NCBI RefSeq assembly: GCF_001025215.1
Contig: NZ_AP012330.1
Coordinates: forward strand, 2,170,001-2,234,000
From: Bifidobacterium pseudocatenulatum DSM 20438 = JCM 1200 = LMG 10505
Lineage (GTDB): Bacteria > Actinomycetota > Actinomycetes > Actinomycetales > Bifidobacteriaceae
Length of the DNA stretch: 64,000 nucleotides
Reading direction: 5' to 3'
Positions 5,168 to 24,785 of this stretch are shown here, in pieces. A program made the translations under genes and the position numbers. Position 1 is the stretch's first letter. Every line of letters begins with the position of its first letter. The notes under the pieces were generated by a model, which was not told the origin of the DNA, did not search any database, and worked only from the letters and a program-made list of their open reading frames with translations.

Positions 5168-5340
5168 GAATCAACAATTTACCTGTTGACCTACCCGAAG
5201 AAGCAAGTATGGACGAATCCGTTTCACCTGCCGATATGCGATGATCTCAATACTGGAATCTCACTATCCATCTCATATTACGATCGAATATTGCGATCGA
5301 TGCTACAAACAGACATTACAAGCCGATATCGTGCTTGCGG

Positions 5341-5445
5341 AAAACAAAAGAAGCCCCGCACCGACGCGGGGCTTCTCCAACGAGACGATAAGAGAGGAAG
5401 AGCACGTCTCGTTTAATGGTTGACGGAAGTTCGCGCTTCCGCCAA
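5341..5445 (-). ncRNA. Candidate structured small RNA, copy 1
   Basis: Read on the minus strand this element has three stems. First is a 6-bp hairpin CGGAAG/CTTCCG (5441-5424). After a TCAACCATTA linker comes a 9-bp stem AACGAGACG/CGTCTCGTT (5413-5379) with a 17-nt loop holding CTCTTCCTCTCT. Last is an 11-bp terminator stem AGAAGCCCCGC/GCGGGGCTTCT (5376-5349) followed by TTTGTTTT. A second copy at 24501-24605 keeps the linker and loop while the 9-bp stem changes by compensatory substitution. It lies about 85 nt past the stop of the leftward ATPase gene, so it could be an independent small RNA or a processed 3' UTR. I see no clear promoter and recognise no named family. Confidence 0.65.
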
Positions 5446-5530
5446 GTTTTTATTCAGCCACCCGCCAGCCGATTTCCGTAAAGGATATTCCCCTGAAGAA
5501 ACAGCCAACGGTTGGTTACTCGATATCAGC

Positions 5531-6658
5531 TCAGTTCAGACGCAGCTCGGTCGACGGAGCGAACAGGTGCATCTTGGACGGGTCGATCTTGATCTTGACG
5601 GTATCGCCGACCTTCGGGAGAGCACGCGGGTTCACGCGGATCGTGGTGAGCTTGTTCTGATCGGACATCATGGTGGATGCCTCAGCAGCGGAGCCATCGG
5701 TGATGATGTTGCCGTAGATGTAGCCATCGGAGCCCAGATCCTCAACGTTCATGACCTTGAGGGAGAAGGCGTTGGCGTCATCCGGGGCGGCCAGGGAAGC
5801 GTCTTCCGGACGGAAGCCGACGACGATCTGGTTGTTGTCTTCAGCGGTGAGCTTGTTGACGGCCTCGGCCGGCAGATCCACGGTGTCTTCGCCGATCTTT
5901 GCCTTGCCGTTGACCACCGGGTGGGTGTTGATGTTCATCGACGGGGAGCCGATGAAGCCAGCGACGAAGACGTTGGCCGGGCGATCGTACAGCTCGGTCG
6001 GAGCGCCGACCTGCTGCAGGACACCGAGCTTGATGACGGCGATGCGGTCACCCATGGTCAGAGCTTCGGTCTGATCGTGGGTCACGTACAGGGTGGTGAC
6101 ACCCAGCTGGCGCTGCAGAGCAGCGATCTGGGTACGGGTCTGCACGCGGAGCTTGGCATCAAGGTTGGACAGAGGCTCATCCATGAGGAAGACCTTCGGC
6201 TCACGGACGATTGCACGGCCCATGGCCACGCGCTGACGCTGGCCACCGGACAGAGCCTTCGGCTTACGATCGAGGTACTCGGTCAGGTCGAGGATCTCAG
6301 CGGCCTTCTCGACGCGCTTGCGGATCTCTTCCTTCGGGGTGCCGGCGATCTTCAGAGCGAAGCCCATGTTGTCGGCCACGGTCATGTGCGGGTACAGAGC
6401 GTAGTTCTGGAACACCATTGCGATGTCGCGGTCCTTCGGCTGCATCGTGGTGACGTCCTTGCCACCGATGAGGATGCGGCCCTTGTTGACCTCTTCAAGG
6501 CCAGCGAGCATACGCAGAGTAGTGGACTTGCCGCAGCCAGACGGGCCAACCAGCACCAGGAACTCGCCGTCCTTGATGTCCATATTCAAATCATCCACCG
6601 ACGGCTTATCGTTGCCCGGGTAGATACGAGTAACATGGTCGAATACGACTTCTGCCAT
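5531..6658 (-). CDS. msiK: Shared sugar-ABC importer ATPase (MsiK/UgpC type)
   Basis: A 375-residue ATPase with every ABC motif: Walker [11 protein letters not shown] near residue 38, Q-loop [11 protein letters not shown], signature [14 protein letters not shown], Walker [13 protein letters not shown] and switch histidine YVTHDQTEA. The C-terminal part is the OB-fold regulatory domain of the MalK/MsiK/UgpC group. MsiK-type proteins in actinobacteria power several different sugar importers. That fits this window, where the importers at 44415-47803 and 49931-56270 have no ATPase. The ATG at 6658 has AAAGGATG 7 bases upstream. The choice of msiK over ugpC as symbol is a convention. Confidence 0.9.
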
Positions 6659-6675
6659 GATTTGTCATCCTTTCA

Positions 6676-6693
6676 GAGGCAGGTACGTGCCTC
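6676..6693 (-). promoter_or_regulatory. Hairpin just upstream of the msiK ribosome site
   Basis: A GAGGCA/TGCCTC 6-bp stem with a 6-nt loop directly precedes the AAAGGATG ribosome site in a leader of about 165 nt. It could modulate translation. I cannot show that it is more than a small hairpin. Confidence 0.35.
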
Positions 6694-6822
6694 ACGATCC
6701 GTTGTAAAGGGATTTCTTTTCGGTGCCTCGCCTTGCGGCTTACGACTTCGACAAAGCCACAATTCAAAGCGTTAATTTATTTCTTTGGTTTGGCGAAGGT
6801 TCTCTTCGTTGAGCCACGTTCC

Positions 6823-6850
6823 ATGATACATACAACGCTAAAACTGTCAA
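6823..6850 (-). promoter_or_regulatory. Probable msiK promoter
   Basis: On the minus strand a perfect -35 TTGACA (6850-6845) and a -10 TATCAT (6828-6823) are separated by 16 bases. It would give msiK an untranslated leader of about 155-165 nt. Confidence 0.6.
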
Positions 6851-6977
6851 TGCGTGTCGCGAGTCGCGCTGTTTACCTACGCTGGCAAAAGGGGGTTAAC
6901 GGCGTAGTAAATACACGCCTTTATCGCCATCATGCAAGACAATGGTGCGGAGCGAAAGACAGAACAGGGAGGTTGCA

Positions 6978-7694
6978 GTGCGCAATATTAGAATCGGCGT
7001 GGTCGAGGATGATCCCGCAAGCTGCCAGCTGGTACTTGACTATCTCAACCGATATCAGCAGGAAAATGACGAACAATTCACCGTTTCCGTATTCGACGAC
7101 GGCGCGAGAATCGTAGAGAAATATACCCCTGTTTACGATATTTTACTGCTCGACATCGAAATGAGCGAAATGGACGGCATGGCCGCCGCGAGACGCATTC
7201 GCGAGCGCGACGACAAGGTCGTGATCGTGTTCATCACCGCCGCACCGCAGTATGCGATCAGCGGGTACGAGGTGCGCGCATTGTCGTATCTGCTCAAGCC
7301 CCTGCCGTGGTTCGCGTTTTCACAGGAACTCAAGAAGTCGATCGACATGGTGAGGCGCAATGGCGACGATTCCATGCTTATCGAAACCAGCAACGGGCAG
7401 ATGCGGCTGAATCTTGCCGATATTCTGTATCTCGAATCGATCCGGCATACCATCGTCATCCACACGTTGGAAGGCAAACTGTCGATCAATGGCACGCTCA
7501 AAGACATGGAAGCGAAACTCGCCGACCACCATTTCTTCCGCTCGAATTCCTGCTATCTGGTGAATCTCAAGCATGTGACGGGCGTCGCCGACCAGGATTG
7601 CGTGATGTCGAACGGCGAACAGTTGCGCGTAAGCCGACCACGCAAGAAGGCGTTCCTCGCCGCGTTGACCGACTATATAGGAGGTGGCAGGTGA
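6978..7694 (+). CDS. LytTR response regulator
   Basis: A 238-residue AgrA/LytR-type regulator. The N-terminal receiver domain has the acidic pair VVEDD, the phosphoacceptor aspartate in LLLDIEMSEMDG and the conserved lysine in LLKPL. The C-terminal LytTR DNA-binding domain starts near residue 130, with ADILYLESIRHTIVIHT and FFRSNSCYLVNLKHV. I chose the GTG start because AGGGAGG lies 5 bases upstream. Its TGA overlaps the GTG of the following histidine kinase (GTGA), so the two are translationally coupled. LytTR/GHKL pairs commonly answer peptide signals, but no agrB/agrD-like genes are adjacent. Confidence 0.9.
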   Translation: MRNIRIGVVEDDPASCQLVLDYLNRYQQENDEQFTVSVFDDGARIVEKYTPVYDILLLDIEMSEMDGMAAARRIRERDDKVVIVFITAAPQYAISGYEVRALSYLLKPLPWFAFSQELKKSIDMVRRNGDDSMLIETSNGQMRLNLADILYLESIRHTIVIHTLEGKLSINGTLKDMEAKLADHHFFRSNSCYLVNLKHVTGVADQDCVMSNGEQLRVSRPRKKAFLAALTDYIGGGR

Positions 7695-9142
7695 CCAGCG
7701 TGATATTGCCGAATGCGCTGGCCGGATTGGCAGGAGGACTGGCAGGAGGCTCCCCTTCCATACCTTCCGTTTTGGTGACCGTGCTTTCGGTGCCGCCGAT
7801 GACGCCAATCACCAACGCTCTGCCCGACATCCCCCGTTCTTATACGGCGATCTGCGAATGGGCCGCGTGCATGGTGTATATCGCGGTGTCGTATCGTCGC
7901 GTGCCGCTCCGACGGTCGATCATCGTCAGTGCGGCCGGCTTGGCATCGCTGGTCGCGGTGCAGTATTTCGACGGCAGTATGCCGATCTGGTTCTGGATCA
8001 TCGGTATGCTGCTCGCATTCGCCTGCATGTATGCGACGATTCTGCTCGGCGCGGGCACCGGCAAACGCGAGGGCCTGTATATTACGGCGCGCGCGTTCGT
8101 GTTGGCCGAATTGGTGGCGTCGCTGCATTGGCAGATCGTTACGTTCATTGGCGTGCGCGACGGATTCACCGATTACGATTGGCGCGCGATCGCGCTGCTT
8201 GTCGTTACGTATGCGCTGTGCTTCGGTCTAGCTTGGATGGTTGAACGCGGCAATTTCAGCCAGGCCACACCTACCTTGCCGACCGCTTCCGCCGCGATTG
8301 CGACGATGGCCATCATGATCGTCACGTTCGCCATGAGCAATTTGAGTTTCGTGTCGACGAATACGCCGTTTTCCGGTTCGGTCGGCCAGGAAATCTTCTA
8401 CATTCGCACGCTGGTCGATTTCTGCGGTTTCGCGATCCTATATGCGCAGCAGGAGCAGGCGCGCCGTATTGAGGCGAATACGGAACTCGCGTCGATCAAC
8501 GCGCAGCTGGAAAGCCAGCATCAGGAATACCTGCAATCGAAGGAAAATATCGAATCGCTAGGCCGTCTTGCGCACGATCTGAAGCATCAGCTTGCGGCGT
8601 TGCGTGCCGAAGTCGATCCGAAGCATGCCGCGGCCGGCTTCGAGCAGCTGGAGCAATCGGTGCAGCGCTATAGCGCGCAGCAGCATACCGGCAATCCCGT
8701 GCTTGACGTTATTTTGACCACGAAAGAGCGCACGTGCGCCGATCGAGGCATTACGTTCACGGCGGTCGCGGACGGCTCGCTGCTAAGCGGCATGTCGTCG
8801 ATGGATATCGCATCATTGTTCGGCAACGCGCTTGACAATGCGATCGAAGCGACGTCGAAATTGCCGAAACGTGAGCAGCGTCTGATCAAACTTGCGTTAT
8901 ACGAGCAGAATCGCTTTATTGTTATCCGGGTTGAGAATTATTACGATTCCCGATTGAAGAAGGATGCGGAAGGCAATCTGCGCACCACCAAGCGCGACGA
9001 TCAGCATCGGCATGGTTTCGGCGTGAAGTCGATTCGTCATATCGCGCAGCAGTATGGCGGCGAAGTGACGATTCGCACCGAAGACCACTGGTTTGTGCTG
9101 ACCGCGCTTATTCCGCGGAAAACCGGCCTTATGGCCATGTAG
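7691..9142 (+). CDS. GHKL sensor histidine kinase (AgrC/ComD-like)
   Basis: A 483-residue kinase. About six hydrophobic membrane segments fill residues 30-240, followed by a Q/E-rich coiled coil (ANTELASINAQLESQHQEYL). The H-box is LGRLAHDLKHQLAALRAEV, the N-box SLFGNALDNAIEATSKL and the G-box HGFGVKSI, all of the GHKL type that pairs with LytTR regulators. The start is a GTG overlapping the regulator's stop, with a GGAGG ribosome site at 7680-7684. The extracellular signal is unknown; the many-pass sensor suits a small peptide. A terminator hairpin overlaps the 3' end. Confidence 0.88.
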   Translation: MTSVILPNALAGLAGGLAGGSPSIPSVLVTVLSVPPMTPITNALPDIPRSYTAICEWAACMVYIAVSYRRVPLRRSIIVSAAGLASLVAVQYFDGSMPIWFWIIGMLLAFACMYATILLGAGTGKREGLYITARAFVLAELVASLHWQIVTFIGVRDGFTDYDWRAIALLVVTYALCFGLAWMVERGNFSQATPTLPTASAAIATMAIMIVTFAMSNLSFVSTNTPFSGSVGQEIFYIRTLVDFCGFAILYAQQEQARRIEANTELASINAQLESQHQEYLQSKENIESLGRLAHDLKHQLAALRAEVDPKHAAAGFEQLEQSVQRYSAQQHTGNPVLDVILTTKERTCADRGITFTAVADGSLLSGMSSMDIASLFGNALDNAIEATSKLPKREQRLIKLALYEQNRFIVIRVENYYDSRLKKDAEGNLRTTKRDDQHRHGFGVKSIRHIAQQYGGEVTIRTEDHWFVLTALIPRKTGLMAM

Positions 9143-9157
9143 GACTGGCCATAAGGC
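9126..9157 (+). terminator. Hairpin over the kinase stop codon
   Basis: A 12-bp perfect stem GCCTTATGGCCA (9126-9137) with TGGCCATAAGGC (9146-9157). The TAG stop codon lies in the 8-nt loop. There is no long T-run, but it sits between convergent genes and probably ends both. Confidence 0.65.
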
Positions 9158-9171
9158 TTAAGGCGGCTCCG

Positions 9172-10254
9172 CTAGTTTTCAAGATTCTGCGCAGCGGCAT
9201 CGCCGTCAGACGCATCACCGGCATCACCGCCTGCCGATGCGTCGCCGCCAGCATCGCCGGCATTCGCCGCACCTCCAGCCGCGCCGCCCGCCGCAGCACC
9301 TCCAGCCGTATTGTCCGGACTATTCGCAGCACCACCGTTAGAGCCCCCGTTAGTGCCGATATTGGTGTTGTTCGTCACGGTGTTGGGAGTCGACGACGCC
9401 TCCTGGTATTGGTCCATCGCCTGCTGAACGGCGTCTTTGGCGGCATTCAGCGCGTCAACGGCGGCCGTCACGTCGTTTTCCTTGAGATTGGTGCCATTGG
9501 CAAGGTTTCTGGCCGAGTCAATCGCCTGCTGCAATGCCATGCGCACGCTGTCGTCGGCCACCATGCCGTCGGAATTGTCGAGCACGGACTGCGCCTGCTC
9601 GATCGCGTCATTGAGCTGGCCCTTCAGACGATTCTGCGTGGCCAGCACTTTGGAAGCGTCGACGGCTTCGGCCGCATTTGTAATCTTTTCGGCCTTGTCG
9701 TTCATGCTCCGTGCCTCGGATGCCATGGCTTTCGCGGATTTCTTCAGCTTGCTGATGCCCTGCGACGTGTCGCACGACAGGATTTTCGCTTCCTTCGCGT
9801 TAGATATGGCCGCATTGAGCTTAGTGACGGTGCTGACGTCGGCGACTTGATCGGCAGTGACCTTCGCGCCGGTTTTTCCGATTTCCAAAGCGTCGGAAAG
9901 CGTGTTATTGGCACTTTGCAGCTGGCTTGTGGAATCCTGGCATTGCGCGGCTGCGCTGGTAATGGCTGATTTCTTGGAATTATTCGAAAGCATCCAACAT
10001 GCAATACCGCCAATCAAAGCAATCACGACGATAGCCGCAATCACGATAGCGACGATTTTGCCGGTATTCTTCGGTGGTACCGGAATTTCATTGCTGTAAT
10101 CGCCGTAACCCTCGAAAACACTGAAATCGCTTACACCGTTCACATCGCTTTCTTGCGAAGCGACCGTCGGAGGCTTCGGCGGTTCGGACATGTCAGCCCC
10201 CATCACCTCGGTATCCGTCGGAAATTCCAGCCTGAAATTGTTGTCTTTCGTCAT
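9172..10254 (-). CDS. Membrane-anchored helical protein with Gly/Ala tail
   Basis: A 360-residue protein of no named family. Residues 1-62 are polar and proline-containing, probably cytoplasmic. One membrane segment follows (KIVAIVIAAIVVIALIGGIA). The outer part is mostly helical, with repeated ALN/AK patterns like those in FIVAR-type wall proteins (AVDALNAAKDAVQQAMDQYQ). The last 75 residues are low-complexity Gly/Ala/Asp/Asn. There is no LPXTG motif. The topology suggests a surface-exposed spacer protein anchored by its N-terminal helix. It reads toward the convergent kinase gene. The function is unknown. Confidence 0.7.
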   Translation of the reverse strand: MTKDNNFRLEFPTDTEVMGADMSEPPKPPTVASQESDVNGVSDFSVFEGYGDYSNEIPVPPKNTGKIVAIVIAAIVVIALIGGIACWMLSNNSKKSAITSAAAQCQDSTSQLQSANNTLSDALEIGKTGAKVTADQVADVSTVTKLNAAISNAKEAKILSCDTSQGISKLKKSAKAMASEARSMNDKAEKITNAAEAVDASKVLATQNRLKGQLNDAIEQAQSVLDNSDGMVADDSVRMALQQAIDSARNLANGTNLKENDVTAAVDALNAAKDAVQQAMDQYQEASSTPNTVTNNTNIGTNGGSNGGAANSPDNTAGGAAAGGAAGGAANAGDAGGDASAGGDAGDASDGDAAAQNLEN

Positions 10255-10331
10255 ACGTCCTTCTTCATCATCGGGCGCTCAGCATCGACCATCTATACGC
10301 CGACCCCCTAGTTTACCGCCTAACACACCCT

Positions 10332-11726
10332 TCAACGCGCATTCGCCTTAATTACCTTCTTTTCCGCACTTTTCGATAGGCGCAAAGCGGCAAGCGGCTC
10401 CCCTAAACACGATGCGGTGAACGCACTCACCGCAACCGCGAATCCAATGGGCACAAACAGATTGATCGGAGCATCCGCAAGTTCCATCACCAAGCAAATC
10501 GCCATAAGCGGAGCCTGTTGGGAAGCTGCGAGCAATGCGCACGCACCCAGCAGAGCATACATGCCAATCGAATTCGTGTGAAACACCTGCATCCACAGAA
10601 CACCCAGCACAGCACCCCCCGAAGCGCCGAGCGCAATACCCGGCTGCAGCACACCGCCGGAAGCGCCGGAACGGATCGTCAGCAATGTGACAATCGCCTT
10701 CGCCAGGAACGAAACCAGCAAAATCGGCACCACCGCCAAATCGGCCTTGGACGAGAAACTCAACTGCGCGGTGGCACGGCCATTGCCCATAACCTGCGGC
10801 ACCCAAATCGCCACCACGCCAGTCAGCAGGCCGGCGAGCGGCAACATCCACAGAATGCCCGCGCCCGACGGTTTGGACTTCTCGGCCCACTGCGAGCCGC
10901 GACGGAACAGTGCGCCGGCAGCGCCGAGAATCATGCCGGCAACCAGTGCGAACGCCATGTAATCGGGGGTGAACAGGCCGTCCGCTTTGCCGATCAGGTA
11001 GAACGCGTGCGTGCCCTTGACCAGCGACGCCACCCACGAAGCCAGCGCGGAACAGGCGAAAGCGAGCGTCACCGTTTCGAGGGTTATGTCGGCGAGCAGA
11101 ATCTCGACCGCGAAAAACGTGCCCGCAAGCGGCGCGTTATACACGCCCGCAAGGCCGGCGGCGGCCGTAATGGCCACCAACATACGGGTGTCTTTCGCAT
11201 CGAGACGCACCCAACGTGCGAACCGCTGACCGAACATCGCACCCAACTCGCGCGGCGCCACTTCTCGACCGATCGACATGCCCGTACCGACAATGAAAAT
11301 CTGCAGCAACACATGCACGACGGTCTGCCAAATCGGCATAATATCGCCATTCACCGCCTTTTTGACGGACGGCACCTTCGTACTGCGCGTACGCAACAGC
11401 CACCAAATCACGGCGGCGACGGTCGCGCCAACGGTCACGGAAATCAAGCACCGAATCGCAGGAACGTTGAACGGGCCGGATTCCTGCGAATTCTCAACAT
11501 AACCGAGCGCAAGATGCTCGACGCCGTACAGCATAAGCGTCAGCAGGCCAGCGGCCGCACCAATGGCCACACCCACAATCGCCACCGCCGCAATCAGCGC
11601 CGGAATTCTGCCAATCTTTGGCTGCGTTCCTTGAGGATTCTGCGACTCCTGCGATTCTCGTGTTTTTTGCGATTCCTGCGATTCCCGCATCTGCCGCACT
11701 CCTTGCACACCGTCTCCTTCGTTCAA
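10332..11726 (-). CDS. ClC-family chloride channel/transporter
   Basis: A 464-residue ClC protein with many membrane helices. The selectivity-filter region is recognisable: GMSIGREVAPRELGA corresponds to the GREGP motif, and GASGGVLQPGIALGA to the second filter motif. The N-terminal 35 residues are a low-complexity repeat (RESQESQKTRESQESQ) encoded by a short DNA tandem repeat, so the true start may be further in. The protein moves chloride or another anion across the membrane; exchange with protons cannot be judged here. It is a single gene. Confidence 0.82.
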   Translation of the reverse strand: MNEGDGVQGVRQMRESQESQKTRESQESQNPQGTQPKIGRIPALIAAVAIVGVAIGAAAGLLTLMLYGVEHLALGYVENSQESGPFNVPAIRCLISVTVGATVAAVIWWLLRTRSTKVPSVKKAVNGDIMPIWQTVVHVLLQIFIVGTGMSIGREVAPRELGAMFGQRFARWVRLDAKDTRMLVAITAAAGLAGVYNAPLAGTFFAVEILLADITLETVTLAFACSALASWVASLVKGTHAFYLIGKADGLFTPDYMAFALVAGMILGAAGALFRRGSQWAEKSKPSGAGILWMLPLAGLLTGVVAIWVPQVMGNGRATAQLSFSSKADLAVVPILLVSFLAKAIVTLLTIRSGASGGVLQPGIALGASGGAVLGVLWMQVFHTNSIGMYALLGACALLAASQQAPLMAICLVMELADAPINLFVPIGFAVAVSAFTASCLGEPLAALRLSKSAEKKVIKANAR

Positions 11727-11767
11727 TTCGTTCCCCCAATTGTCCCACCTGCCGCAACGTTCATTTG

Positions 11768-12109
11768 TTACGCCCCGAGCGTGGCGATCGGCAGCACCAG
11801 AATGCCGTCATCACGCCGGTATGCAATATCACCACGCCCGACAATAAATGCCATGAATTCAGGCTCACGAACTTGAGATAGAGGATTTCCGCACACTTTT
11901 TCTTTGAAAGCATGTAGTTTGTCCACATTTTTCTCCATGACTTTCAAGTCGCTCAGCTTAATCCCCACCGCAGCCCAGCGACCATCCACCAATTCAAGAA
12001 TCACATCAACTTCAAGGCCTTTTTCATCCCGATAATATGCGATTCGATTCGTGCCACCCATCGATTCGAGATACACGCGCAAATCACGAATCACCAATGT
12101 TTCAAACAA
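11768..12109 (-). pseudogene. C-terminal remnant of a DUF4143-type AAA ATPase
   Basis: About 113 residues matching the C-terminal end of bacterial AAA ATPases of the DUF4143 type: ETLVIRDLRVYLESMGG, then IAYYRDEKGLEVDVILEL and a K-x-N-V-DKLHAFKEKV helix. The upstream ATPase domain with its Walker motifs (expected at higher coordinates) is absent; other sequence replaces it from about 12110. The fragment is therefore unlikely to be active. It sits beside a transposase-like HTH gene, which suggests truncation by mobile DNA. Confidence 0.6.
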
Positions 12110-12165
12110 ATCTCATACTGAATCAGAGACAATAGTGATGACGCTCTCAGCTTATCCAGCACAAC

Positions 12166-12615
12166 TCATTGCACATCATTTGATAGGGATTGCTGCGAGA
12201 GCTGCATCTTTAGGTCATCGACTTTTAATTCCAAACGTCTGATATAAAGCGCCTGTCGACGGATAATCAAATCACGCATATCATTTCCACCGGTTCCAGG
12301 GTTACCTTCATTCGTGCGACTGGAAGTAACCTCAGCATCGGGGAGATTCACTCTGTCTACCGTGCCTGGATCTTCTATTCGTATTGTCTTCCTCCAACGA
12401 TGCATGCACCGTTCAATACGCTTTTCGCCTATCAACTCAGGACCGAGCCCCGCTTCGCGGAACAGCACAGTGGGAGATTCACCATTTTCAGCACTCGAAA
12501 CGCATTCACGCTTGAACCACTCTGCATATCGGATACGTGAACCAGTAATACTTATGACCGCAGGCAGCGAAGCCAGATACTGTGCTTGTTCCGGAGAGAA
12601 TCGTTCGTCGCTCAT
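12166..12615 (-). CDS. Helix-turn-helix protein, transposase OrfA-like
   Basis: About 149 residues. The N-terminal segment (SPEQAQYLASLP, then RIRYAEWFKRECV, then ELIGEKRIERCMHRWRK) resembles the HTH proteins found near IS3-type transposases. A coiled-coil-like C-terminus (LYIRRLELKVDDLKMQLSQQ) resembles the leucine zipper of OrfA proteins. No OrfB catalytic domain follows. I chose the ATG at 12615; a TTG at 12642 would overlap the pilin-like gene. It may be a leftover of an insertion sequence or a small regulator. Confidence 0.5.
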   Translation of the reverse strand: MSDERFSPEQAQYLASLPAVISITGSRIRYAEWFKRECVSSAENGESPTVLFREAGLGPELIGEKRIERCMHRWRKTIRIEDPGTVDRVNLPDAEVTSSRTNEGNPGTGGNDMRDLIIRRQALYIRRLELKVDDLKMQLSQQSLSNDVQ

Positions 12616-12626
12616 GCTTACTTTTT

Positions 12627-13415
12627 TCACTTCATCGTGCAATCATCTGTATGGGATTTGCCGGCCGAATTGACATCCCGTATGCGGCGTCTCATGCGCA
12701 ATCTGATCAAAATGAACGTAACAAGTAACATGAGCCCCGCTGCCGCGGCAATGCTGCCTACGGCGGCACCCGTACGACCGATAAGGCCAGGATTGCCCGG
12801 CTCCTCGCTCGGGTTATTTTCGGGCGGGACAACAGGAGTTCCAGTGCTAAATTTCGGCTCTACTGTGATGTTGAGATCAGCGGATGTGTCTCCACTGCCA
12901 GGAATCGAGATGAGGAACGGATCACAGTCGTATGCTTTGTTGGCTTTCGCCGAGCTCGTGCGGGAGACCAGATATAGGCCGAGCGGCAGATTCTGGAAAG
13001 TGAGCTGACCAGCTACGTTAGTGGTGCCGGAATGCTGGTACAGCTTGTTTTTCGCCGCGTGCGTAGCGAGCTTCTTGGCAGCATCGTGATATTCACTTGA
13101 TGTCAGGCGTTCCCAATCGGCAGTGAGGCCGGAAAAATCGCCGACGGTTTTATATGAGGAGACGCTACCATCATTGTTCGTTGTGACGGTGGCGACGCGC
13201 ACGATGGAATAGGTATCGCCGGCAAGCAATTTGGGCGAAGCCGTGTCTCGGCCCCATACGGCATTGATGGTGAGAGCGCCGAAAGAATCAGCTTGCGCAT
13301 ACGGCACCATAGAGCCGAAGGCTGCAAGAACAGTGAGGACGATAGTAACGGCGGCGGCAATCATGGCAGCAATGCGCGCCGCACCATATTCGCTTCCGCT
13401 ATGCAGGTCTAACAT
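12627..13415 (-). CDS. Small pilin-like surface protein, last gene of the pilus cluster
   Basis: 262 residues: a signal-peptide-like hydrophobic segment ending AQA near residue 47, a SpaA/FimA-like pilin domain (LAGDTYSIVRVATV; LGLYLVSRTSS followed by PFLISIPG), a proline-rich spacer (PVVPPENNPSEEPGNPG) and a C-terminal membrane helix with a basic tail. A normal LPXTG is missing; LIGRTG stands at the corresponding place. The ATG at 13415 lies inside the 3' end of the sortase gene (17-base overlap), with AAGGA upstream, so it is co-translated with the sortase. It may be a basal or accessory pilin. Confidence 0.7.
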   Translation of the reverse strand: MLDLHSGSEYGAARIAAMIAAAVTIVLTVLAAFGSMVPYAQADSFGALTINAVWGRDTASPKLLAGDTYSIVRVATVTTNNDGSVSSYKTVGDFSGLTADWERLTSSEYHDAAKKLATHAAKNKLYQHSGTTNVAGQLTFQNLPLGLYLVSRTSSAKANKAYDCDPFLISIPGSGDTSADLNITVEPKFSTGTPVVPPENNPSEEPGNPGLIGRTGAAVGSIAAAAGLMLLVTFILIRLRMRRRIRDVNSAGKSHTDDCTMK

Positions 13416-14382: not shown

Positions 14383-14407
14383 CGAGCGTTCTTTTCGCGA
14401 GGAAACC

Positions 14408-14455
14408 GTGTTGTGGGCGTAGCGGGTGTGTGCCCTTCACGCCCAAAACACGGCC
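14408..14455 (-). promoter_or_regulatory. Stem-loop between fimA and srtC
   Basis: CCGTGTT-GGGCG arms (14408-14421) pair with CGCCC-AACACGG (14442-14455) around a 2x2 internal mismatch. The loop is about 20 nt and no T-run follows. It may act as a partial terminator or RNA-stability element that keeps pilin mRNA above sortase mRNA. Confidence 0.5.
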
Positions 14456-14462
14456 ATGCTCG

Positions 14463-16067: not shown

Positions 16068-16131
16068 TACTGTTCCTTCCTCTAAATGGAAATCTTTTCT
16101 GTTTGGCAGATACGGTTTGTCTATGTAGTCG

Positions 16132-19100
16132 TCACGCGGCATGGGCACCTCGCTTTCGTATACGGCTGGAGCCCGAGCGGACTGTGCCGGATTGAACGCG
16201 TTGATCACGCACGTACCAGACCACGCCAGCTCCCATAAGCAGCAAGCCGAACATCAGAAACCACATCGTGCCCGCGCCTCCCGTATCCGGAAGCAACGCC
16301 GCATTGGTAACAATGGCCACGCGTTCCTTGGTGTTGTAGGAGACCGATACTTGGTATCCGGCCTCCGCGGGCTTGATGGTCTTGGTGGTATCGCCGTCCT
16401 TATAGGTCACGGCGGTTTCTTCCACGGTGTACGTGTAGTAACGCACGATGTCCTTGCCGTTGGCATCCTGTCCATCCACGAATGCGACCGGCAGTCCTTG
16501 AATCACCTTGCGCCAGGTGTTGCTCCAGGAAGAGGCATCGGAGGAGTCCAACGTCACCGTCCATGGATTCTTCTGCGTCACGGTTGTGCAATCCGCGCCG
16601 AAGCATTGAATCGTCTGCGGCGTCACCGTATTGCCACGGCCATCGGTATAGTGCGCGGCGATCTTCAGTTCGACCGACTGCGGCCGTTCGAGGTTGCCGT
16701 CCTTCCACACCTTCTGCACGGTCAAGTCAACGCTCCGGCAGCCGTCCTTGCCGCACGGGTCCTGGCCGTCGTCCGGTTCGGGGGTGAGTCCGCCGTTGTT
16801 GTCGGTCACGGTCGCGTCGAGCATGAGCACGGCCTTGGCCGGGGACTGGTAGGCATCGAGCTTCGTCTTGGTGCTGCCGTCCGTGGAGTCGACCACGGCA
16901 TCCTTGATGCCAACCCATGTGGTACCAGCGTCGCCGGATGCGGAGCCGTGCACAGCGCTGCTGTCGTATGTGTTGACCACGTCGAACAGCTTCACTTCCC
17001 AACGATCGAGTCCGGTGTTCAGCGCATCGTCTGCCGTGTTCTTCTGCGAGAAGATCTTGTTGCCGTCCTGTGCGGAGGTGCGGGCCTCACTAGCGTTCGC
17101 GGCCGCCTTGCGGTAAATGCGATAGGTGTTGTATGCCTTGTCGCCGTTGCCGTCATCGACCGGTCCGAGGATGTCGCTCATGGTGTTGAAGTCCCATACG
17201 GACTTGAGTTTGGTGTTCGAGAACGGGTCGACCAGTCCGCTGGCACCGCGGATCGTGTCGGCGTAGACCATGTGGTCGTCTGCCAGCACGCCCTCGTCGT
17301 TCAGTCCGGCGAAGCCGCCCGTGTAGCCTGTGGAAAGATCCTTCACACCGTCGGTATCCTGAGTTGCCCCTCCGCCGAACACGTCATAGCCATTGGCGAT
17401 GCCCGTTACGGTGGACTGTTCGACGCGCGTACGGTTGCCCTTGATGAGCTGGACGGTCAGGTTGCTGCCTGACCCATCCATATCAATGCCGTCTTTGCTG
17501 CAAGGCAGTTTGATGACACTATCGCCGATGGTGACAATCGCCACGTCGGTCTGCTGCTGGTTTTCATCATCAGCCTTGGACAGAGCAACACTCACCTTCA
17601 GTCCGAACAGGTTCACGTACAGCACGTCGCCTTCCGAAAGCACCTTGAGATCGAATACCTTGCCGAAGATGGCCGGGAACCACTTGCCTAAATCGATGAC
17701 GCCGACCTGTTCCGCCTTGTCGAGGTACAGGAGCTTGACCAGCGCGTTCACCACTTGCAGCAGCAGTTCCACAAGTACAGAGTTGACCTTCGCGTCAACC
17801 AAATAGGCACGGCTGGTTTCACCGACGAATCCGCCGGCAATCTCACCGCTAGTGACCTTCTTGAGATTGTCAGACGTGCAGCCCTTCACCCTGGCCAAAT
17901 CCACGTATCCAACAAAACCGCCTGCGACCTCACGTCCGGTAGCCTTGTCGGTGGCTTTGCCGTAATTGTCGCCATGGTGTGTGGCGGTGACGGTATAACC
18001 GTCCGGGATGCCGGTGACGCGCGAATCGCCAACGTGCGAGCCCCAGATGTCAAGTACGCCGGCCGTGGCACCAAGCAGATTGAGCGCATCCGTGCCGAGT
18101 TGTGCATTGTCGGCGGCGACCGTGCCGGATTTGCCAAGATGCCCGATGAAGCCGCCCACGTAGTTCACGCCGGTCACACTGTTGAGGTTGGTGACCGCAG
18201 ACTGCTTCACAGAGCCATTGATCAGTCCACCGCCGAAGCCACCGACCGCACCGGTGTAACGCTTCGAGTCAAGCATGCCCTTTGTGGTGGAATCATGGGC
18301 GACAATCTGGATGCCGTCGCTCACACCGTTGACCTGACCGTCATAGATGAAGGTGCGGAATGCTTCGAGCACGCCCACGTTGCCAACCTTGAGCAGTTTG
18401 AGCAGCAGGTTGGTATCCTGCTTATCGCCGGCCTCGCCGCCGCCGACGGAAGCGACGCTGGATACATCAGCAAGGCCAAAGAAGCCACCGGCGTATTGCC
18501 CGCCTTCGACAGCGCGCAGCCCGTTAACAGTAAGAGAAGCCGGGTCATTGTTCGGATCCGCTTCACTGCCGGTGCCTTTGGCGGAATCCTTGTCACCGAG
18601 GATCGCGGCTTGCAACGAACCAGCGAAACCGCCGGCGTTCAGGGCATACTTGGCTGTGGTATTACCCTTATCGTCCTTGCTCTCATATGCGCCATTGACC
18701 GTGTATCCCCATGCCGGGTCATCCGAGCTCACATGTGCACCGCGAATCGTCGTAACCGTGGCCTGCAATACGCTGACCAGACTTGCCGGGTTCGATACCA
18801 GCGAGTCGAGGATTCCTTGCAGGAATCCCTCGGACGCATTGGTGTCCACATCCGCAACCGCACCGGCAGTGGCCACGCCGATAAATCCGCCGACATTGTT
18901 GCGCCCTTCCACCTTGCGCAGGTTGGAAACGTTGGCGCCGGCAGCGGTGACACCCTCGGCAAGCTTCTGGCCGTTCTGGTCGAGATCGCCCCAGATCTGG
19001 CCACCGACCGCGAGACCGGCATAGCCTCCGGCATTACCGGTACCGTGCGTGATGTCTTCACCGGTGGCCACGACCTTCATACCCTTGCGGTAGCCGGCCA

Positions 19101-22100
19101 CGCTCGAAGATTTGACGACGGGCACAAATACCTGTGCCACGTCGAGCATCTGTCCCAAATCAAGTTTGATGCCTTTGTCGCCGAATAGTTGGATAGAGCC
19201 GAACGAGGATGCCGAGCCGGATTCCATCGTGCCCGCATAACCGCCTGCCGCACGCATGGCAGAGACGGTCTTGACATCCATCGACTGGCCATCGGTGATC
19301 GTGCCGGTGCACATCAGACCGACGTGTCCGCCGGCGACGCCGGAATCATGCAAGTTCGCGCCAGTCTGATACTCCGCACGACCGGCGACGACGTTGAATC
19401 CGAAGATGTAGGATTCGAGGAACTTGTCCAGGGAATCCTGATCAGTAACAGAGCCCGCACCATCGCCCGTAGCTACCTCGGTAAATTCCTTGCCATACGC
19501 ACCGTACTTGCCGATGTTGTCGGCCCACGTCTTCCATTGGTCGTAGCTCATATTGCGCAAAGGACCAGTGACCTTCGAGTGCTCCTCGGTCGGGTAGACC
19601 ACAGACAGCACGCCAGCGAGATTGCCGGCCTTGATGAGACCGCCAAGCAAGGAGAGCGAACCGCCTTGAGCGGTATCGGCCGCCTCCATGAAGCCGGTGT
19701 AACCGCCGGCGATTTCGGCACCGTATACGCTGCGGATGCGCGCGGCGTAGGCTACGCGCTGCGGCCCGTTGTATTTGCCGTCGGTATTCTCCTGCTTCCA
19801 CGCTGCTGTGTTGTTGCCCCAGATATGACCGCCACGATTACGACCTGCATAGCCGCCGGCCATGCCGCGGCGTGTGGTCGTATCCGATGCCGCCTGGGCA
19901 CGCACCGCGCCGCCGCACACTGCGGCATCGGTCGAGCTGTTGCGAATCGTCGGCACGAAGTCCTGCACGAGCGAGAGCAGGTTGTCGAGGTTGACAAGCT
20001 TCTTGAGCACGCTGCCGTCACCAAGCACGTTCGCCACGGCTCCCGGCTGCATGGCGCCCACGTAACCGCCGGCCGAAACCTGGCCGATGATGTATACGAA
20101 CTCATGAGAGCTCGAGTCCTGAATATAGCCGCCTTCAATGTCTCCGGCGAAACCACCAGCCATACCCAGTGGATCGGGCTCATTGTTGGCATTCCTATGA
20201 TTTGCGGTGCTGGCCAGAACGGAATATCCGCCGATGCCGCCAGTCACATCGGAGTGTTCAATCGACGAGACGACGACATCCAGCACACTGAGTACATCGT
20301 TGAGATTGACGTTCTGGCCGAGCAGGCTCAGGCCACCGCCCACAGCTGCCGCCGAGCCGATGTCCATTTTGCCGATGTAACCGCCGGCGTATCGCGCAGC
20401 GGTGACTGCATATGTGCTGTCTTTGCTCAGATAGGTGCCATCGATTGATCCGGCGGTTTCCAGATTCTTCGGTGCCTTGACATCAGTACGGCGCAGTTGG
20501 GTCACACTGGAATGGGACACCTGCACACCGGAACCGTATCCGATGTAGCCGCCGGCGGAACCGGATTGCGTATCGGACTGATCAAATCGGGTGGCGGAAA
20601 CGGTGAAGCCGGGATCATCCGGGTCGGAAATCTTGTTACCGCTAGTTGCCTCCACGGTGGTGGCATCGGAATGCACACCCGCGTAGGAGATGAATGGCAC
20701 ATAGCCCTGCACCACCTGCAACAGGTTGGCGAGATCCACCGTACCGAATTTGCCGAGCAAACTCAGGCCGCCGTTGCCAGCCGAAGCGAGCGCACCGGAG
20801 ACAACCTTGCCGCCGAAACCACCTGCGTATGCGCCGCCAGTCACATGGTCAAGGTTGACAACGGCCACGGGGTTGGTTTGCACGCGGGACTGTACACCGG
20901 CCAGCGTTGAGTCGTTCTTGAGATCGGTTTCGGAGAACTGGTTGACCTTGCCGCTTTGGAAGTTTCCCGCATAGCCGCCCGCGATATCGCCTTCGACATA
21001 ACCGCCGTTGACGTACGTCACGGTGGTATACGTATAGCTTGGAATCAGATACGGTACGGCACCGAGCAGGTCGTTCACGGACAGCAGGCCGCCTTTGATC
21101 AGGTCATCCAATATGCTGGAATCTTCTGCGTTGCTGAGCGCGTCGGCGAGGCCACCGGTGGTGGAGAAGCCCACGAAACCGCCTGCCACACCATCGGACG
21201 TGCTGGTATCGGCTGTGACCGATTTGAGGTTTGTCACATGGCTTTCCCGGGTCTTGGTGCTGTTGGCCTGACCATAGAAACCGCCTGCAGCGTAATCGGT
21301 CGTTTCGTTGTTCTCGTTCTTGCCGGTTGCCGCAACCGTGAATCCGCCAGAGATGCCGTTCACGTTCGATGCAGTGACTGCAACCGAAGAATATTGGGCA
21401 ACCGATAGCAGACCGGAAAGCTTGATAAGCCCAAGCACATTGAGACCGCCAGCGCCGATGGCGTCGCCTGGTCCAGAGAAGCCAATAAAACCGCCGGCTT
21501 CTCCCCTGGCCGAGACCGTGGCCAGATTGGTAAGGTTCGTGTTGGCCACGTCGCCGCCGGTGGCGCATCCGATGGCACCGCCTGCATAATATGAACCAGC
21601 CGTCACTGTCAAGCCGGATGCCGGAGCGGTGACAGACATGTTCTCCACGGTGAACGCGGCAAACTGGTCGAACTTCTTGAGCGTGGCAATATCGCCAATT
21701 TTCACCACACTGTTGAGCAACCCAGCTACCGTTGTCGGTTGCAGATCGCCGGCGATGCCACCCGCGTAGGAGCCCGTGGCCGTGACCGATTCAAGACCTT
21801 CTATGGTGGTGGAACGCTGCTGTGGGAAGTCACGAAGATTGTTGTACTTCCAGAATGTGAGATTTTGAAGGCGGTTCCGCGAGGAATCACCGATCACCGT
21901 ACCCGAACCTTCGCCCACAAGGCCGCCCGCGTAATCACCGCCGGCAGCAACTGTGAGGGAACCCTTCATTTGTGTACCGAGAATCACAGAAGGATTCACA
22001 CCGACGATGGATAGCAGTTCTCCTGCACCGTTATCGCTGCCGCTCAGCAATTTAGTCACAGCCTTGGTGAGCTGTTTCAACAGCGATGCATTCGTGGTAT

Positions 22101-24375
22101 CGTCCGTACCGAGTTCCAGGCCCCATCCCACGGAGGCGAATCCGGTGAATCCTCCGGCGTGGGATCTGTCGGCAGTCACGGCGACCGAAGCCGTAATCGA
22201 ATTATTGACAGCATAGGCATTGGCCATGGCACCGTTGAAGCCGCCGGCGTAGTCTTCGGCCTGCACGGTGATCTTATCGTCACCGTTTACCGTCAGGCCA
22301 CTGTTTTCGATGAGGCTCTGCGGACGCAGCGCAGACAGCAAGTCGACGCCAAGCGAGTTAATCAGACCGCCCACGTTGCCGTTGCGACTTACTCCGGCAA
22401 AACCACCGGCATATTGCGTTGCCCGCACGGTGAAACCATTCGTGCTCGTCACCGAAGAGTTCTCAATGATTGCACCAATCTGTGCACCGACAAAACCGCC
22501 GGCCTGCGAGTTGTCCTTGTTGCCGATCACCACGTTCTCTTTGAACCCGTTCACCGAACTATTCGAGATAACCGGGTTGTAGTAGCCAACCGGAATCAAG
22601 GCATTCAGCCCGAGCGTGCCGGACAGCAACCAGTCCACCAAATCGCCCAGCCCGAGGAACGGGATGACACCCAAGATCTTCGAGAGTACATTGGTGAGCG
22701 CTCCTACGATGCCGGAGACTGCATCGTATCGGGTTGCGCCCTCAACATATCCCACGAAACCACCGGTCATACGGCTTACGCTAGATACCGAAACATCTGC
22801 TACCTCGCAGTCCGTAACCTTGGTGTCCCCGTAGATACGGCCGGCAAATGCACCCGTGGCGAGGTTGGAAGGATTGTCTTTGTGCAGGGTGAGCAGACCT
22901 TGAAGATTGAGGTCAAGATCTACTTGTCCGAATGTCAATAGTTTTAACGCCTTCAACAGTGTGTCGAGCAGTAATCCCACTGCCGAAGTGAGCATACCGA
23001 GCAAGGTCGGCGGAATATACGATTCACTCGTATGATTCGTCACCGACACATCCTGCAGCTTGAGGTTCGACACCACGGCCGTACCGGCGCTGCCCAGACT
23101 GTTGCTGTTCATCACGGTCTTGTTCGTGATCGAGGCGAAGAAGCCGATGCCCTGCTGCTTGCTGACATCCAGCTGGTCGCCTTTGACATTAGAGACCATA
23201 TCTTTCTGATTGACGACCACATGGCTGATGACCGGACGAGCTGCGGTAGCGTGAACCACGCTTGCGCCATCGGCACCAACAGCCTTCCACAGGCTGGCTT
23301 CGGTGTCGCCGTCATTGGAGACCGCACCGAGCATAGTGCCGGAGAACATGAGCGGAGTCCACTCGGTGTTGTTGGTATCTGCCGCGTTCTTGGACAGGTC
23401 GATGTCACGGAAGATCAGGTAGTTGGCGTCTGCGGAATAGGTCAGGCCGGTGTTGGCAGCGGAGTAGTCCGTTTGCGTGCCATCAGCACCCACGCCGTAA
23501 TACTTGGTGCGGGTCCTGTTGACGCTTAACGCCGTGCATGCCAGCAGTGGACTGTCGTGGTCGGAGGCATCAGTATCGCGCAAAATATCTGAATCGGAGA
23601 GATCGGCGTCACCGGCGTATTCGGAAGACGGCGTGCCGTCCACCCACTGATAATTGAGGGCTCCTTGCTGCATGCAAGTCTGCGTGACCTTGTTGATGCG
23701 GCCAATAACCTTCTTGCCAGAACCAATCGCACGCAGCTGCTGCTCGTTACCAATCAGGATGTAGGTCTTGCCGTTGATCTCCTTCGTGGCCTGACCCTCA
23801 AAGTCACGGCCGCCAAGCGCCGTCGCGGCGACCTGCACATCGGCCTTCGCCGGCGATTGATCCGTCGCATTTGAGGAATCGTTCTTGGCATCTTGAGAAG
23901 AAGCATCGTTTGGAGCCTGCGTTTGGGCTCCATCATTAGTGGAATTGCCAGCGGTAGCTTCTGCTGAGTCGTCCGCCTTATTGTCTGTCGCACCATTTGA
24001 GGATTCGGAAGAATCACCAGTAGTAGAAGATGAAGGAGATGAATCCTGCTGTGCGTCTTGATTCGTTTCGGAAGGTGTTGGCGCACCGTTTGATGTATTG
24101 GCCTCTTCTGACGTCTTATCGTCAACGTTGACATTGCGGGCAGAAGGAGCAGCTACGACAGTATTACCCCCCCCCCCTCCAGAAATTACGGCGTTAGGAG
24201 AGCTACTCACATCGTCTATATTCTGAGCATATGCTGCAGGCACCATGCACACGATGGACAAGGAAACAGCAATAACCGAAGCAAGGCAACGCTTCAAAGA
24301 CAGGCACTGCCGTCCAGATTCCCGTTCTGTTCCTCCGTTAAACCCGCAACGGACGAACTTCAATTCCGAGCTCAT
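16132..24375 (-). CDS. fimB: Giant LPXTG adhesin, probable pilus tip subunit
   Basis: 2747 residues, far larger than most bifidobacterial tip pilins. A long-leader signal peptide (hydrophobic core ASVIAVSLSIVCMVPAAYA) precedes a Ser/Thr/Asn/Asp-rich spacer (residues 55-190). Then come about 30 modules each bearing an AGG(Y/F)xG motif, like GLUG-type adhesin repeats. Near the C-terminus there is a Cna-B-like domain (VDLTVQKVWKDGN), LPDTGG, a membrane helix and a basic tail. GGGGAG lies just before the ATG. A run of 11 G bases at codons 67-71 makes expression switchable by slippage; the frame is intact as sequenced. It heads the pilus operon. The symbol is by position and role, not close identity. 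Confidence 0.82.
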   Translation of the reverse strand: MSSELKFVRCGFNGGTERESGRQCLSLKRCLASVIAVSLSIVCMVPAAYAQNIDDVSSSPNAVISGGGGGNTVVAAPSARNVNVDDKTSEEANTSNGAPTPSETNQDAQQDSSPSSSTTGDSSESSNGATDNKADDSAEATAGNSTNDGAQTQAPNDASSQDAKNDSSNATDQSPAKADVQVAATALGGRDFEGQATKEINGKTYILIGNEQQLRAIGSGKKVIGRINKVTQTCMQQGALNYQWVDGTPSSEYAGDADLSDSDILRDTDASDHDSPLLACTALSVNRTRTKYYGVGADGTQTDYSAANTGLTYSADANYLIFRDIDLSKNAADTNNTEWTPLMFSGTMLGAVSNDGDTEASLWKAVGADGASVVHATAARPVISHVVVNQKDMVSNVKGDQLDVSKQQGIGFFASITNKTVMNSNSLGSAGTAVVSNLKLQDVSVTNHTSESYIPPTLLGMLTSAVGLLLDTLLKALKLLTFGQVDLDLNLQGLLTLHKDNPSNLATGAFAGRIYGDTKVTDCEVADVSVSSVSRMTGGFVGYVEGATRYDAVSGIVGALTNVLSKILGVIPFLGLGDLVDWLLSGTLGLNALIPVGYYNPVISNSSVNGFKENVVIGNKDNSQAGGFVGAQIGAIIENSSVTSTNGFTVRATQYAGGFAGVSRNGNVGGLINSLGVDLLSALRPQSLIENSGLTVNGDDKITVQAEDYAGGFNGAMANAYAVNNSITASVAVTADRSHAGGFTGFASVGWGLELGTDDTTNASLLKQLTKAVTKLLSGSDNGAGELLSIVGVNPSVILGTQMKGSLTVAAGGDYAGGLVGEGSGTVIGDSSRNRLQNLTFWKYNNLRDFPQQRSTTIEGLESVTATGSYAGGIAGDLQPTTVAGLLNSVVKIGDIATLKKFDQFAAFTVENMSVTAPASGLTVTAGSYYAGGAIGCATGGDVANTNLTNLATVSARGEAGGFIGFSGPGDAIGAGGLNVLGLIKLSGLLSVAQYSSVAVTASNVNGISGGFTVAATGKNENNETTDYAAGGFYGQANSTKTRESHVTNLKSVTADTSTSDGVAGGFVGFSTTGGLADALSNAEDSSILDDLIKGGLLSVNDLLGAVPYLIPSYTYTTVTYVNGGYVEGDIAGGYAGNFQSGKVNQFSETDLKNDSTLAGVQSRVQTNPVAVVNLDHVTGGAYAGGFGGKVVSGALASAGNGGLSLLGKFGTVDLANLLQVVQGYVPFISYAGVHSDATTVEATSGNKISDPDDPGFTVSATRFDQSDTQSGSAGGYIGYGSGVQVSHSSVTQLRRTDVKAPKNLETAGSIDGTYLSKDSTYAVTAARYAGGYIGKMDIGSAAAVGGGLSLLGQNVNLNDVLSVLDVVVSSIEHSDVTGGIGGYSVLASTANHRNANNEPDPLGMAGGFAGDIEGGYIQDSSSHEFVYIIGQVSAGGYVGAMQPGAVANVLGDGSVLKKLVNLDNLLSLVQDFVPTIRNSSTDAAVCGGAVRAQAASDTTTRRGMAGGYAGRNRGGHIWGNNTAAWKQENTDGKYNGPQRVAYAARIRSVYGAEIAGGYTGFMEAADTAQGGSLSLLGGLIKAGNLAGVLSVVYPTEEHSKVTGPLRNMSYDQWKTWADNIGKYGAYGKEFTEVATGDGAGSVTDQDSLDKFLESYIFGFNVVAGRAEYQTGANLHDSGVAGGHVGLMCTGTITDGQSMDVKTVSAMRAAGGYAGTMESGSASSFGSIQLFGDKGIKLDLGQMLDVAQVFVPVVKSSSVAGYRKGMKVVATGEDITHGTGNAGGYAGLAVGGQIWGDLDQNGQKLAEGVTAAGANVSNLRKVEGRNNVGGFIGVATAGAVADVDTNASEGFLQGILDSLVSNPASLVSVLQATVTTIRGAHVSSDDPAWGYTVNGAYESKDDKGNTTAKYALNAGGFAGSLQAAILGDKDSAKGTGSEADPNNDPASLTVNGLRAVEGGQYAGGFFGLADVSSVASVGGGEAGDKQDTNLLLKLLKVGNVGVLEAFRTFIYDGQVNGVSDGIQIVAHDSTTKGMLDSKRYTGAVGGFGGGLINGSVKQSAVTNLNSVTGVNYVGGFIGHLGKSGTVAADNAQLGTDALNLLGATAGVLDIWGSHVGDSRVTGIPDGYTVTATHHGDNYGKATDKATGREVAGGFVGYVDLARVKGCTSDNLKKVTSGEIAGGFVGETSRAYLVDAKVNSVLVELLLQVVNALVKLLYLDKAEQVGVIDLGKWFPAIFGKVFDLKVLSEGDVLYVNLFGLKVSVALSKADDENQQQTDVAIVTIGDSVIKLPCSKDGIDMDGSGSNLTVQLIKGNRTRVEQSTVTGIANGYDVFGGGATQDTDGVKDLSTGYTGGFAGLNDEGVLADDHMVYADTIRGASGLVDPFSNTKLKSVWDFNTMSDILGPVDDGNGDKAYNTYRIYRKAAANASEARTSAQDGNKIFSQKNTADDALNTGLDRWEVKLFDVVNTYDSSAVHGSASGDAGTTWVGIKDAVVDSTDGSTKTKLDAYQSPAKAVLMLDATVTDNNGGLTPEPDDGQDPCGKDGCRSVDLTVQKVWKDGNLERPQSVELKIAAHYTDGRGNTVTPQTIQCFGADCTTVTQKNPWTVTLDSSDASSWSNTWRKVIQGLPVAFVDGQDANGKDIVRYYTYTVEETAVTYKDGDTTKTIKPAEAGYQVSVSYNTKERVAIVTNAALLPDTGGAGTMWFLMFGLLLMGAGVVWYVRDQRVQSGTVRSGSSRIRKRGAHAA
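24167..24177 (-). repeat. Homopolymeric G11 tract in the adhesin gene
   Basis: Eleven consecutive C on the plus strand (G on the coding strand) encode part of a five-glycine run about 70 codons into the adhesin. Gain or loss of one base shifts the frame and stops translation early, so this is a contingency-type tract. Confidence 0.9.
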
Positions 24376-24417
24376 TGTCTCCCCTCATAGATTCGCAATC
24401 CCCTTTCGGGAGATTAC

Positions 24418-24447
24418 TGCATACAACTATACGGAAGAGGTTGACAA
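24418..24447 (-). promoter_or_regulatory. Probable pilus operon promoter
   Basis: On the minus strand, -35 TTGTCA (24447-24442) and -10 TATGCA (24423-24418) are 18 bases apart, about 43 bases before the adhesin ATG. TATAGT at 24432-24427 is an alternative -10 with worse spacing. Confidence 0.45.
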
Positions 24448-24500
24448 AAGAACAAAAAACGTTCATTTGCTGGGGCCGGTTAGCGTATGTCTTTCTGAGC

Positions 24501-24605
24501 AAAAAGAAAAGCCCCGCAGCTATGCAGGGCTTTTCCAACGAGGTCATGAGAGAGGAAGAGAACGACCCCGTTTAATGGTTGACGAAGCTTTAGGACCTCG
24601 CCAAA
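24501..24605 (-). ncRNA. Candidate structured small RNA, copy 2
   Basis: The second copy of the element at 5341-5445, on the same strand. Stem 1 is CGAGG/CTTCG (24600-24583, one G-U pair). The linker TCAACCATTA is identical. Stem 2 is AACGGGGTC/GACCTCGTT (24572-24537), with an 18-nt loop again containing CTCTTCCTCTCT. The terminator stem is AAAAGCCC.GC/GC.GGGCTTTT (24534-24507), then TTTCTTTTT. G-U pairs form only in the minus-strand transcript, which fixes the orientation. The upstream gtrA gene has its own terminator, so this copy is likely transcribed separately. It ends about 60 bases before the pilus promoter. Confidence 0.65.
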
Positions 24606-24635
24606 TCACTCATCATTCCGCACTTTCAAGTTTAT

Positions 24636-24704: not shown

Positions 24705-24785
24705 GCCGGCAACACTGCTGACGATTGCATTTCGATATTCAGAAATCATAAGAAACTACAGGAAAGCAGCAAAAAGGGCATAAGA

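Follow-up and report, generated by a model that had tools for sequence, protein, structure and literature searches.

A conserved RNA element with a CU-rich loop at the 3' end of the msiK mRNA of bifidobacteria, a candidate base-pairing regulator of transporter genes

The 6C RNA (RF01066) is an actinobacterial RNA with pyrimidine loops that hold a run of C. In terms of mode of action and of origin, two base-pairing RNAs of other bacteria are like the element presented below. In the LhrC small RNAs of Listeria, CU-rich loop motifs meet a G-rich site before the start codon; the UCCC motif is found at three sites of the small RNA, Hfq is reported to be dispensable for the control of lapB, and there are several copies per genome (PMC4132741). 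MalH of E. coli, ~104 nt long, comes from the 3'-terminal part of a sugar ABC-transporter transcript and regulates other surface and uptake functions (PMC9438474). As for bifidobacteria, housekeeping RNAs and riboswitches are described in B. breve (PMC5746004) and intergenic small RNA candidates in B. animalis (PMC4338058). A stand-alone bifidobacterial ATPase, BL0673, was proposed to serve sugar ABC transporters without an ATPase of their own (PMC4746261), and the sugar preference of these bacteria, e.g. for lactose over glucose, is described as having no settled mechanism (PMC10688810).

In this work, we are presenting the analysis of a 64,000-nucleotide stretch of the Bifidobacterium pseudocatenulatum genome (positions 2170001-2234000 of 2,313,752 bases), hereafter the window, which carries two related RNA elements on its minus strand. 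As an earlier note on this DNA had claimed, both are built of three stems and share an identical linker, TCAACCATTA, and an identical loop, CTCTTCCTCTCT; they are located at 5447-5340 (copy 1) and 24606-24498 (copy 2). Copy 1 as a whole (5340..5447, minus strand) consists of stem 1 (TTGGCGGAAG/CTTCCGTCAA, 5420..5445), the linker, stem 2 together with its loop (arms AACGAGACG/CGTCTCGTT, 5379..5413) and an intrinsic terminator (5347..5378), stems 1 and 2 being assigned from folding and covariation; the CU-rich loop, which is the proposed pairing seed, occupies 5391..5402. Copy 2 (24498..24606, minus strand) has the same loop at 24549..24560 and its terminator at 24505..24536, and the arms of its stem 2 are AACGGGGTC/GACCTCGTT. 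Between the copies, pairs 7, 8 and 9 of this stem are altered on both sides and pair 5 passes from A-U to G-U, and an intrinsic-terminator-like hairpin forms the 3' end of each copy, both in agreement with the note. The CU loop is unpaired in the predicted folds of both copies, the folding z-scores are -5.0 for copy 1 and -6.5 for copy 2, and equally stable shuffles were not met in 200 trials for either of them. By BLAST, these two copies are the only strong matches in the window genome.

Further copies were found by BLAST across 112 genomes of the genus, and a covariance model (R1) built from 31 sequences (alignment A2) gave matches at E<=5e-5 in 74 of the 112 (counted by hand, with stricter search filters), so that the covariance-model check proposed in the earlier note returned many covarying homologues. 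Pairing was evaluated in alignment A4, made by MAFFT from sequence only, in which each of 50 genomes is represented by one element; it excludes near-identical copies as well as the loci that diverge most (L173, L175-L190). There, 96.2% of cells pair and two-sided changes occur in 20 of 31 pairs. None of 500 shuffles reached any of five covariation measures, and sliding the partners by 1-3 columns lowered pairing to 37-51%; the excess over the slid versions is partly due to the structure having been drawn from such sequences, while the two-sided changes are not so explained. Against the shuffled and the slid controls alike, the elements behave as one covarying family of structured RNA. Helices 1 and 2 covary strongly, helix 3 (the terminator) covaries too, and conservation is higher in the loop than in the stems, the exact 12-mer of the loop being present in 64 of 80 homologous loci and its CU run in most variants. 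The comparison of 50 homologues, with covariation in all three stems, supports a structured RNA under selection, and in this respect the functional RNA that had been proposed from conserved loops and covarying stems holds.

In a pattern scan of genome contigs, 41 of 42 matching stretches belonged to Bifidobacterium, L081 of B. catenulatum subsp. kashiwanohense being among the named matches, and the remaining one, in a Cloacimonadota MAG (L083), is probably a chance match; the exact-pattern scan of viral contigs gave no match. At the gathering cut-off of Rfam 15 only rRNAs and the msiK leader were matched in the window, and a scan of both loci at E<=5 gave only sub-threshold matches over the elements. 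The 6C covariance model (RF01066) matched neither at gathering nor at E<=5; both RNAs have pyrimidine loops in actinobacteria, but that of the element is CU-mixed and not a C run. With no Rfam family matched, the RNA appears to be uncharacterised, as had been supposed.

The position of the element in the genome is highly regular. In the window, msiK encodes a MalK/UgpC-like ATP-binding protein of 375 aa (5531..6658, minus strand; Pfam ABC_tran, OB_MalK and TOBE_2, NCBIfam UgpC subfamily), of which BL0673 is presumably the orthologue; the gene has its stop at 5531, its 3'UTR carries copy 1, and no promoter-like site of copy 1's own is found within 5300-5600. Of the 80 fetched homologous loci (L111-L190), 76 have msiK immediately 5' of the element and in the same orientation. 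The gap between its stop and the element amounts to 0-141 nt in 72 of these and 224 nt in one, and is negative in three because, with stem 1 missing, the model extends into the gene; the CU loop is kept in L183, L186 and L188 despite the missing stem 1, and L190 is a weak hit after msiK without the CU loop. Four loci are not after msiK: L158, which is a second copy in G019 with the layout of window copy 2, and the weak hits L185, L187 and L189. Weak hits of the model in two further genera of the family are likewise located directly 3' of msiK (L246, L253, L254 and L257; genomes G149, G152, G159 and G160). Judged from this adjacency in 76 of 80 loci and from the weak hits after msiK in other genera, copy 1 forms the 3'UTR of the msiK mRNA together with its terminator. 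Thus placed at an mRNA 3' end and sharing the terminator helix with it, the element has the location of a 3'UTR-derived small RNA and would be like MalH in its length, in its origin and in the proposed control of other uptake functions; MalH, as described in PMC9438474, differs in its release by RNase E, its porin targets, its phylum, its sequence and its seed. As a side observation, contig 10 of G047 carries two msiK-plus-element units (L154, L155) in opposite orientation, ~30 kb apart, and their MsiK proteins are 93 and 96% identical to that of the window.

We also inspected 29 msiK loci from 30 genomes of the genus that were picked for weak or no R1 hits. The loop was at its usual place in none of them; in L241 a CU hairpin follows further downstream, other runs of pyrimidines occur in L230 and L234, and many of the loci have a terminator-like hairpin. 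These relatives bear on the idea that the element is a mere terminator with incidental hairpins upstream of it, to which the terminator nature of helix 3 would correspond. Where the CU hairpin is lacking, terminator-like hairpins are still found 3' of msiK, and the CU hairpin is therefore dispensable for termination; together with the strong covariation of helices 1 and 2 and a loop that is better conserved than the stems, this makes the idea very improbable. A weightier alternative is a purely cis-acting 3'UTR of msiK, whose stems would shield the 3' end or make it recognisable to a protein that binds the CU loop and whose terminator would end transcription, with no targets in trans. It accords with an element that always stands at the msiK 3' end except for transferred copies and weak hits, and two g5 genomes (L249, L250) keep a CU stretch after msiK which in the predicted fold is unpaired without a hairpin of its own, as would suit a sequence-binding protein. 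We consider this alternative unlikely though a serious one, on account of the sites described further on.

The same mRNA contains another conserved structured RNA, the known msiK leader RF01747 (PMC2864571), which differs in being a 5' leader and is a separate element at 6720-6661 of the window (6661..6720, minus strand; 60.4 bits, gathering 33). Just after the -10 box, at 6799..6815 on the minus strand, lies a conserved motif of the mRNA 5' end, GGCTCAACGAAGAGAAC. This motif, GGCUCAACGAAGAGAAC..., is outside the Rfam leader and is seen in several genera. In five of seven genomes searched, msiK is its only match with <=1 mismatch; in G011 two mismatches separate the msiK copy from it and a further site is also matched, and in G006 the msiK copy is unmatched. 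The motif UUCUCUUC is complementary to the loop in many species (8-nt complement), hence the loop might pair with the conserved 5' end GAAGAGAA, close the mRNA 5' to 3' and control msiK itself, which the sole match at msiK in five of seven genomes would favour. Against such closure, the 5' motif is retained in the loop-less relatives L217, L218, L220, L222-L226 and L229, and the loop is retained where the 5' motif is lost (L135, L151, L162, L173 and L175). The reading is weakened because the two motifs are lost independently, and we set pairing within the msiK mRNA aside as improbable.

Copy 2 has another history. It is identical to the element of G015 (L122) at 106 of 109 positions and to copy 1 at 85 of 112, hence the copies are xenologues and not the duplicates for which they had been taken. 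The giant gene next to copy 2 (16132..24375, minus strand) encodes a protein of 2747 aa with an LPXTG anchor, for which Gram_pos_anchor is the only Pfam match at E<=0.001. In G015, G044 and G011 the giant gene is found downstream of msiK and the element. When the window is compared with L119 and L122, similarity sets in with the first base pair of stem 1 and continues into the giant gene, the identity of the block being 91.6% (3160 nt) and 95.5% (842 nt). From this we conclude that copy 2 was most likely acquired by transfer with the giant gene, from a species that has this gene downstream of msiK. The edge of the probably transferred block coincides with the start of the RNA element. Directly before copy 2, at 24607-24706 on the minus strand, there are three copies of GCGTAAAATCGAAA ~23 nt apart and a fourth degenerate one, which look like the end of a mobile element or a repeat at the junction of the transferred block. 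A promoter-like sequence, TTGGCA-17-AATGAT (24612..24640, minus strand), stands just upstream of copy 2 and ends 5 nt before the first position of the model; it is a consensus match only (1 found, 0.2 expected in shuffles). In L158, the sister copy in G019, one loop base is changed and stem 2 has an extra base, which suggests relaxed selection in that genome. Instead of a free-standing, duplicated small-RNA gene, as read from the letters before, there would be a 3'UTR without its own promoter-like site and a passenger of a transferred surface-protein gene, which may or may not be expressed.

Sequences complementary to the loop (<=1 mismatch) were searched for in 18 other genomes, with the reversed pattern as a control. 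They are not in excess, 149 sites, the elements' own included, standing against 139 for the reversed control in the 18 genomes, and this lack of a genome-wide excess again agrees with a purely cis-acting 3'UTR. The positions relative to start codons were then considered in 111 site loci: 4 of the window genome, 60 that comprise all off-element hits of six genomes and three others, 40 more, and 7 chosen by site variant. A site was counted if it lay 1-13 nt before a plausible start of a frame of >=60 aa outside longer frames, as judged by eye, and starts inside or antisense to a longer frame, as well as frames of <60 aa, were set aside (e.g. L354, L387, L398). Gene families were collapsed by eye, with some checked by BLASTP and the FTR1 rows merged on full-length evidence; the proteins without a Pfam match, L376 (test) and L431 (control), are known from their N-terminal parts only.

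Start-adjacent sites were found in 23 gene families, 16 of which are transport-related by Pfam name: two Xan_ur_permease, Sugar_tr, two SBP_bac_3, SSF, Peripla_BP_6, Peripla_BP_5, two NlpA lipoproteins, AA_permease, MIP, SBF, MFS_2, ABC_membrane and FTR1. The other seven are the ATP synthase beta subunit, CN_hydrolase, MazG, a pseudouridine synthase, a zinc-ribbon protein, DUF5692 and one family without a Pfam match. In the reversed control, which covers 43 of the 44 sites in six genomes (without G006:C1:1920904), 2 of 12 families are transport-related, both also present in the test set. The difference between 16/23 and 2/12 gives a Fisher p of 0.0045, and the same six genomes alone give 10/13 against 2/12 (p 0.0048), both values being indicative, as the families were sorted after the hits had been seen. 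This bias towards transporters is left unexplained by a 3'UTR that acts in cis only. FTR1 starts have a one-mismatch site in four genomes (L360, L482, L383, L463), and the other candidate targets have theirs in one to a few genomes. The first NCS2 frame of G015 stops at residue 54, and the site may be under no selection there. Sugar-ABC solute-binding genes were tried as a target class and rejected: the 20 window-genome starts gave a mean of -9.1 kcal/mol, the control starts -7.6 kcal/mol (n=19), and no systematic site was seen. Apart from this, the window genome has two apparently identical sugar ABC transporter loci (L203 and L204, at G000:C1:2243538 and 2267926), whose permease start, GTGAGAGGAGGAACGGACATG, is the most complementary to the loop (-17.4) of 89 window-genome starts.

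The best-supported site belongs to a sugar porter, which is named by Pfam Sugar_tr only. Orthologues of the porter L331 were sought in 44 genomes and matched at E<=1e-40 in 14; the full-length orthologues in seven of those, together with G044, G015, G024 and G031 known before, make up 11 species. All 11 carry the RNA element, and in all 11 the complementary site is kept 2-5 nt before the ATG, as GAGAGGAAG[AG]G in 10 species and as GAGAGGAAGGC in G021; four of them (G016, G017, G042, G071) lay outside the site search. The porter frame of G015 breaks off at residue 132, and there too selection on the site may be absent. A conserved complementary site at the ribosome-binding site of a putative target, as is characteristic of an antisense RNA, is thus present in 11 of 11 species, including the one whose frame is broken, and its conservation is not accounted for by a cis-only role. 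The predicted loop-porter duplexes of the 11 orthologues range from -16.5 to -22.3 kcal/mol, and none of 300 shuffled loops reached their mean. By comparison, the 89 starts of the window genome (window and 20 SBP loci) have a mean duplex of -7.2, with 3 at or below -16, two of these being identical copies of an ABC sugar permease start and one probably no gene, and the 106 starts of other loci have a mean of -6.8, with none at or below -16.

The site is absent from the 10 readable of 13 porter paralogue loci, which gave -4.2 to -12.9 kcal/mol; their starts were picked by a simple SD score, and in the other 3 loci no start was found. The purine-rich site before the ATG is also an ordinary ribosome-binding site, the anti-SD energy of the porter sites being -9.7 to -12.4. 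Full-length porter orthologues were missing from the 15 loop-less genomes of the genus that were searched, as well as from most of the loop-bearing genomes searched, the window species included. The flanking frames are unlike ptsG or licT by eye, which gives no indication that the porter is GlcP. The small RNA pairing with ribosome-binding sites that the earlier note had suggested therefore stands in part: complementary sites exist and one, that of the sugar porter, is conserved, while a gene of its own is not supported.

Taking all this together, we favour a 3'UTR-derived regulatory RNA whose CU loop would block the ribosome-binding sites of transporter mRNAs, and we estimate the probability of this at about 0.55. 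When the msiK mRNA is made, its ~105-nt 3' end, either processed off or staying on, would regulate other mRNAs by base pairing. Its open loop, CUCUUCCUCUCU, would pair with GAGAGGAAGAG-type ribosome-binding sites of transporter mRNAs, with the sugar-porter MFS gene as the best-supported target and the FTR1 iron permease, xanthine/uracil permeases, SSF, MIP, amino-acid permease, MFS_2 and ABC solute-binding lipoproteins as candidates. Pairing would lower translation of the targets, in this way coupling synthesis of the sugar-ABC ATPase to fewer other uptake systems; this action in trans, the translation block and the coupling we infer from loop complementarity, by which the element may act as a small RNA tuning nutrient uptake. 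Copy 2 would be a horizontally acquired one, carried with the giant surface-protein gene. More tentative, and in our opinion somewhat short of an even chance, is the full version, in which a genus-wide RNA within the mRNA of the sugar-ABC ATPase represses the MFS sugar porter, FTR1, NCS2, SSF, MIP and amino-acid systems, and copy 2 is a horizontally spread extra with its own promoter.

The regulator so proposed would be like the LhrC RNAs of PMC4132741 in directing a CU-rich loop at a G-rich site before a start codon and in occurring in several copies per genome; it differs in having one UCUUCCUCUC loop, located in an mRNA 3'UTR, where LhrC has three motif sites, and the comparison extends to the mode of action alone. 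Base-pairing RNAs that derive from mRNA 3' ends are of a known kind, and this family appears to be new, no such RNA having been found in the open-access literature searched or in Rfam. An RNA that is made together with the presumably shared sugar ATPase, and whose proposed seed complements the ribosome-binding site of a sugar porter, offers a concrete post-transcriptional candidate for sugar preference. If the proposed reading is true, Bifidobacterium would possess a family of base-pairing RNAs with predicted targets, and with it a post-transcriptional layer of nutrient preference.
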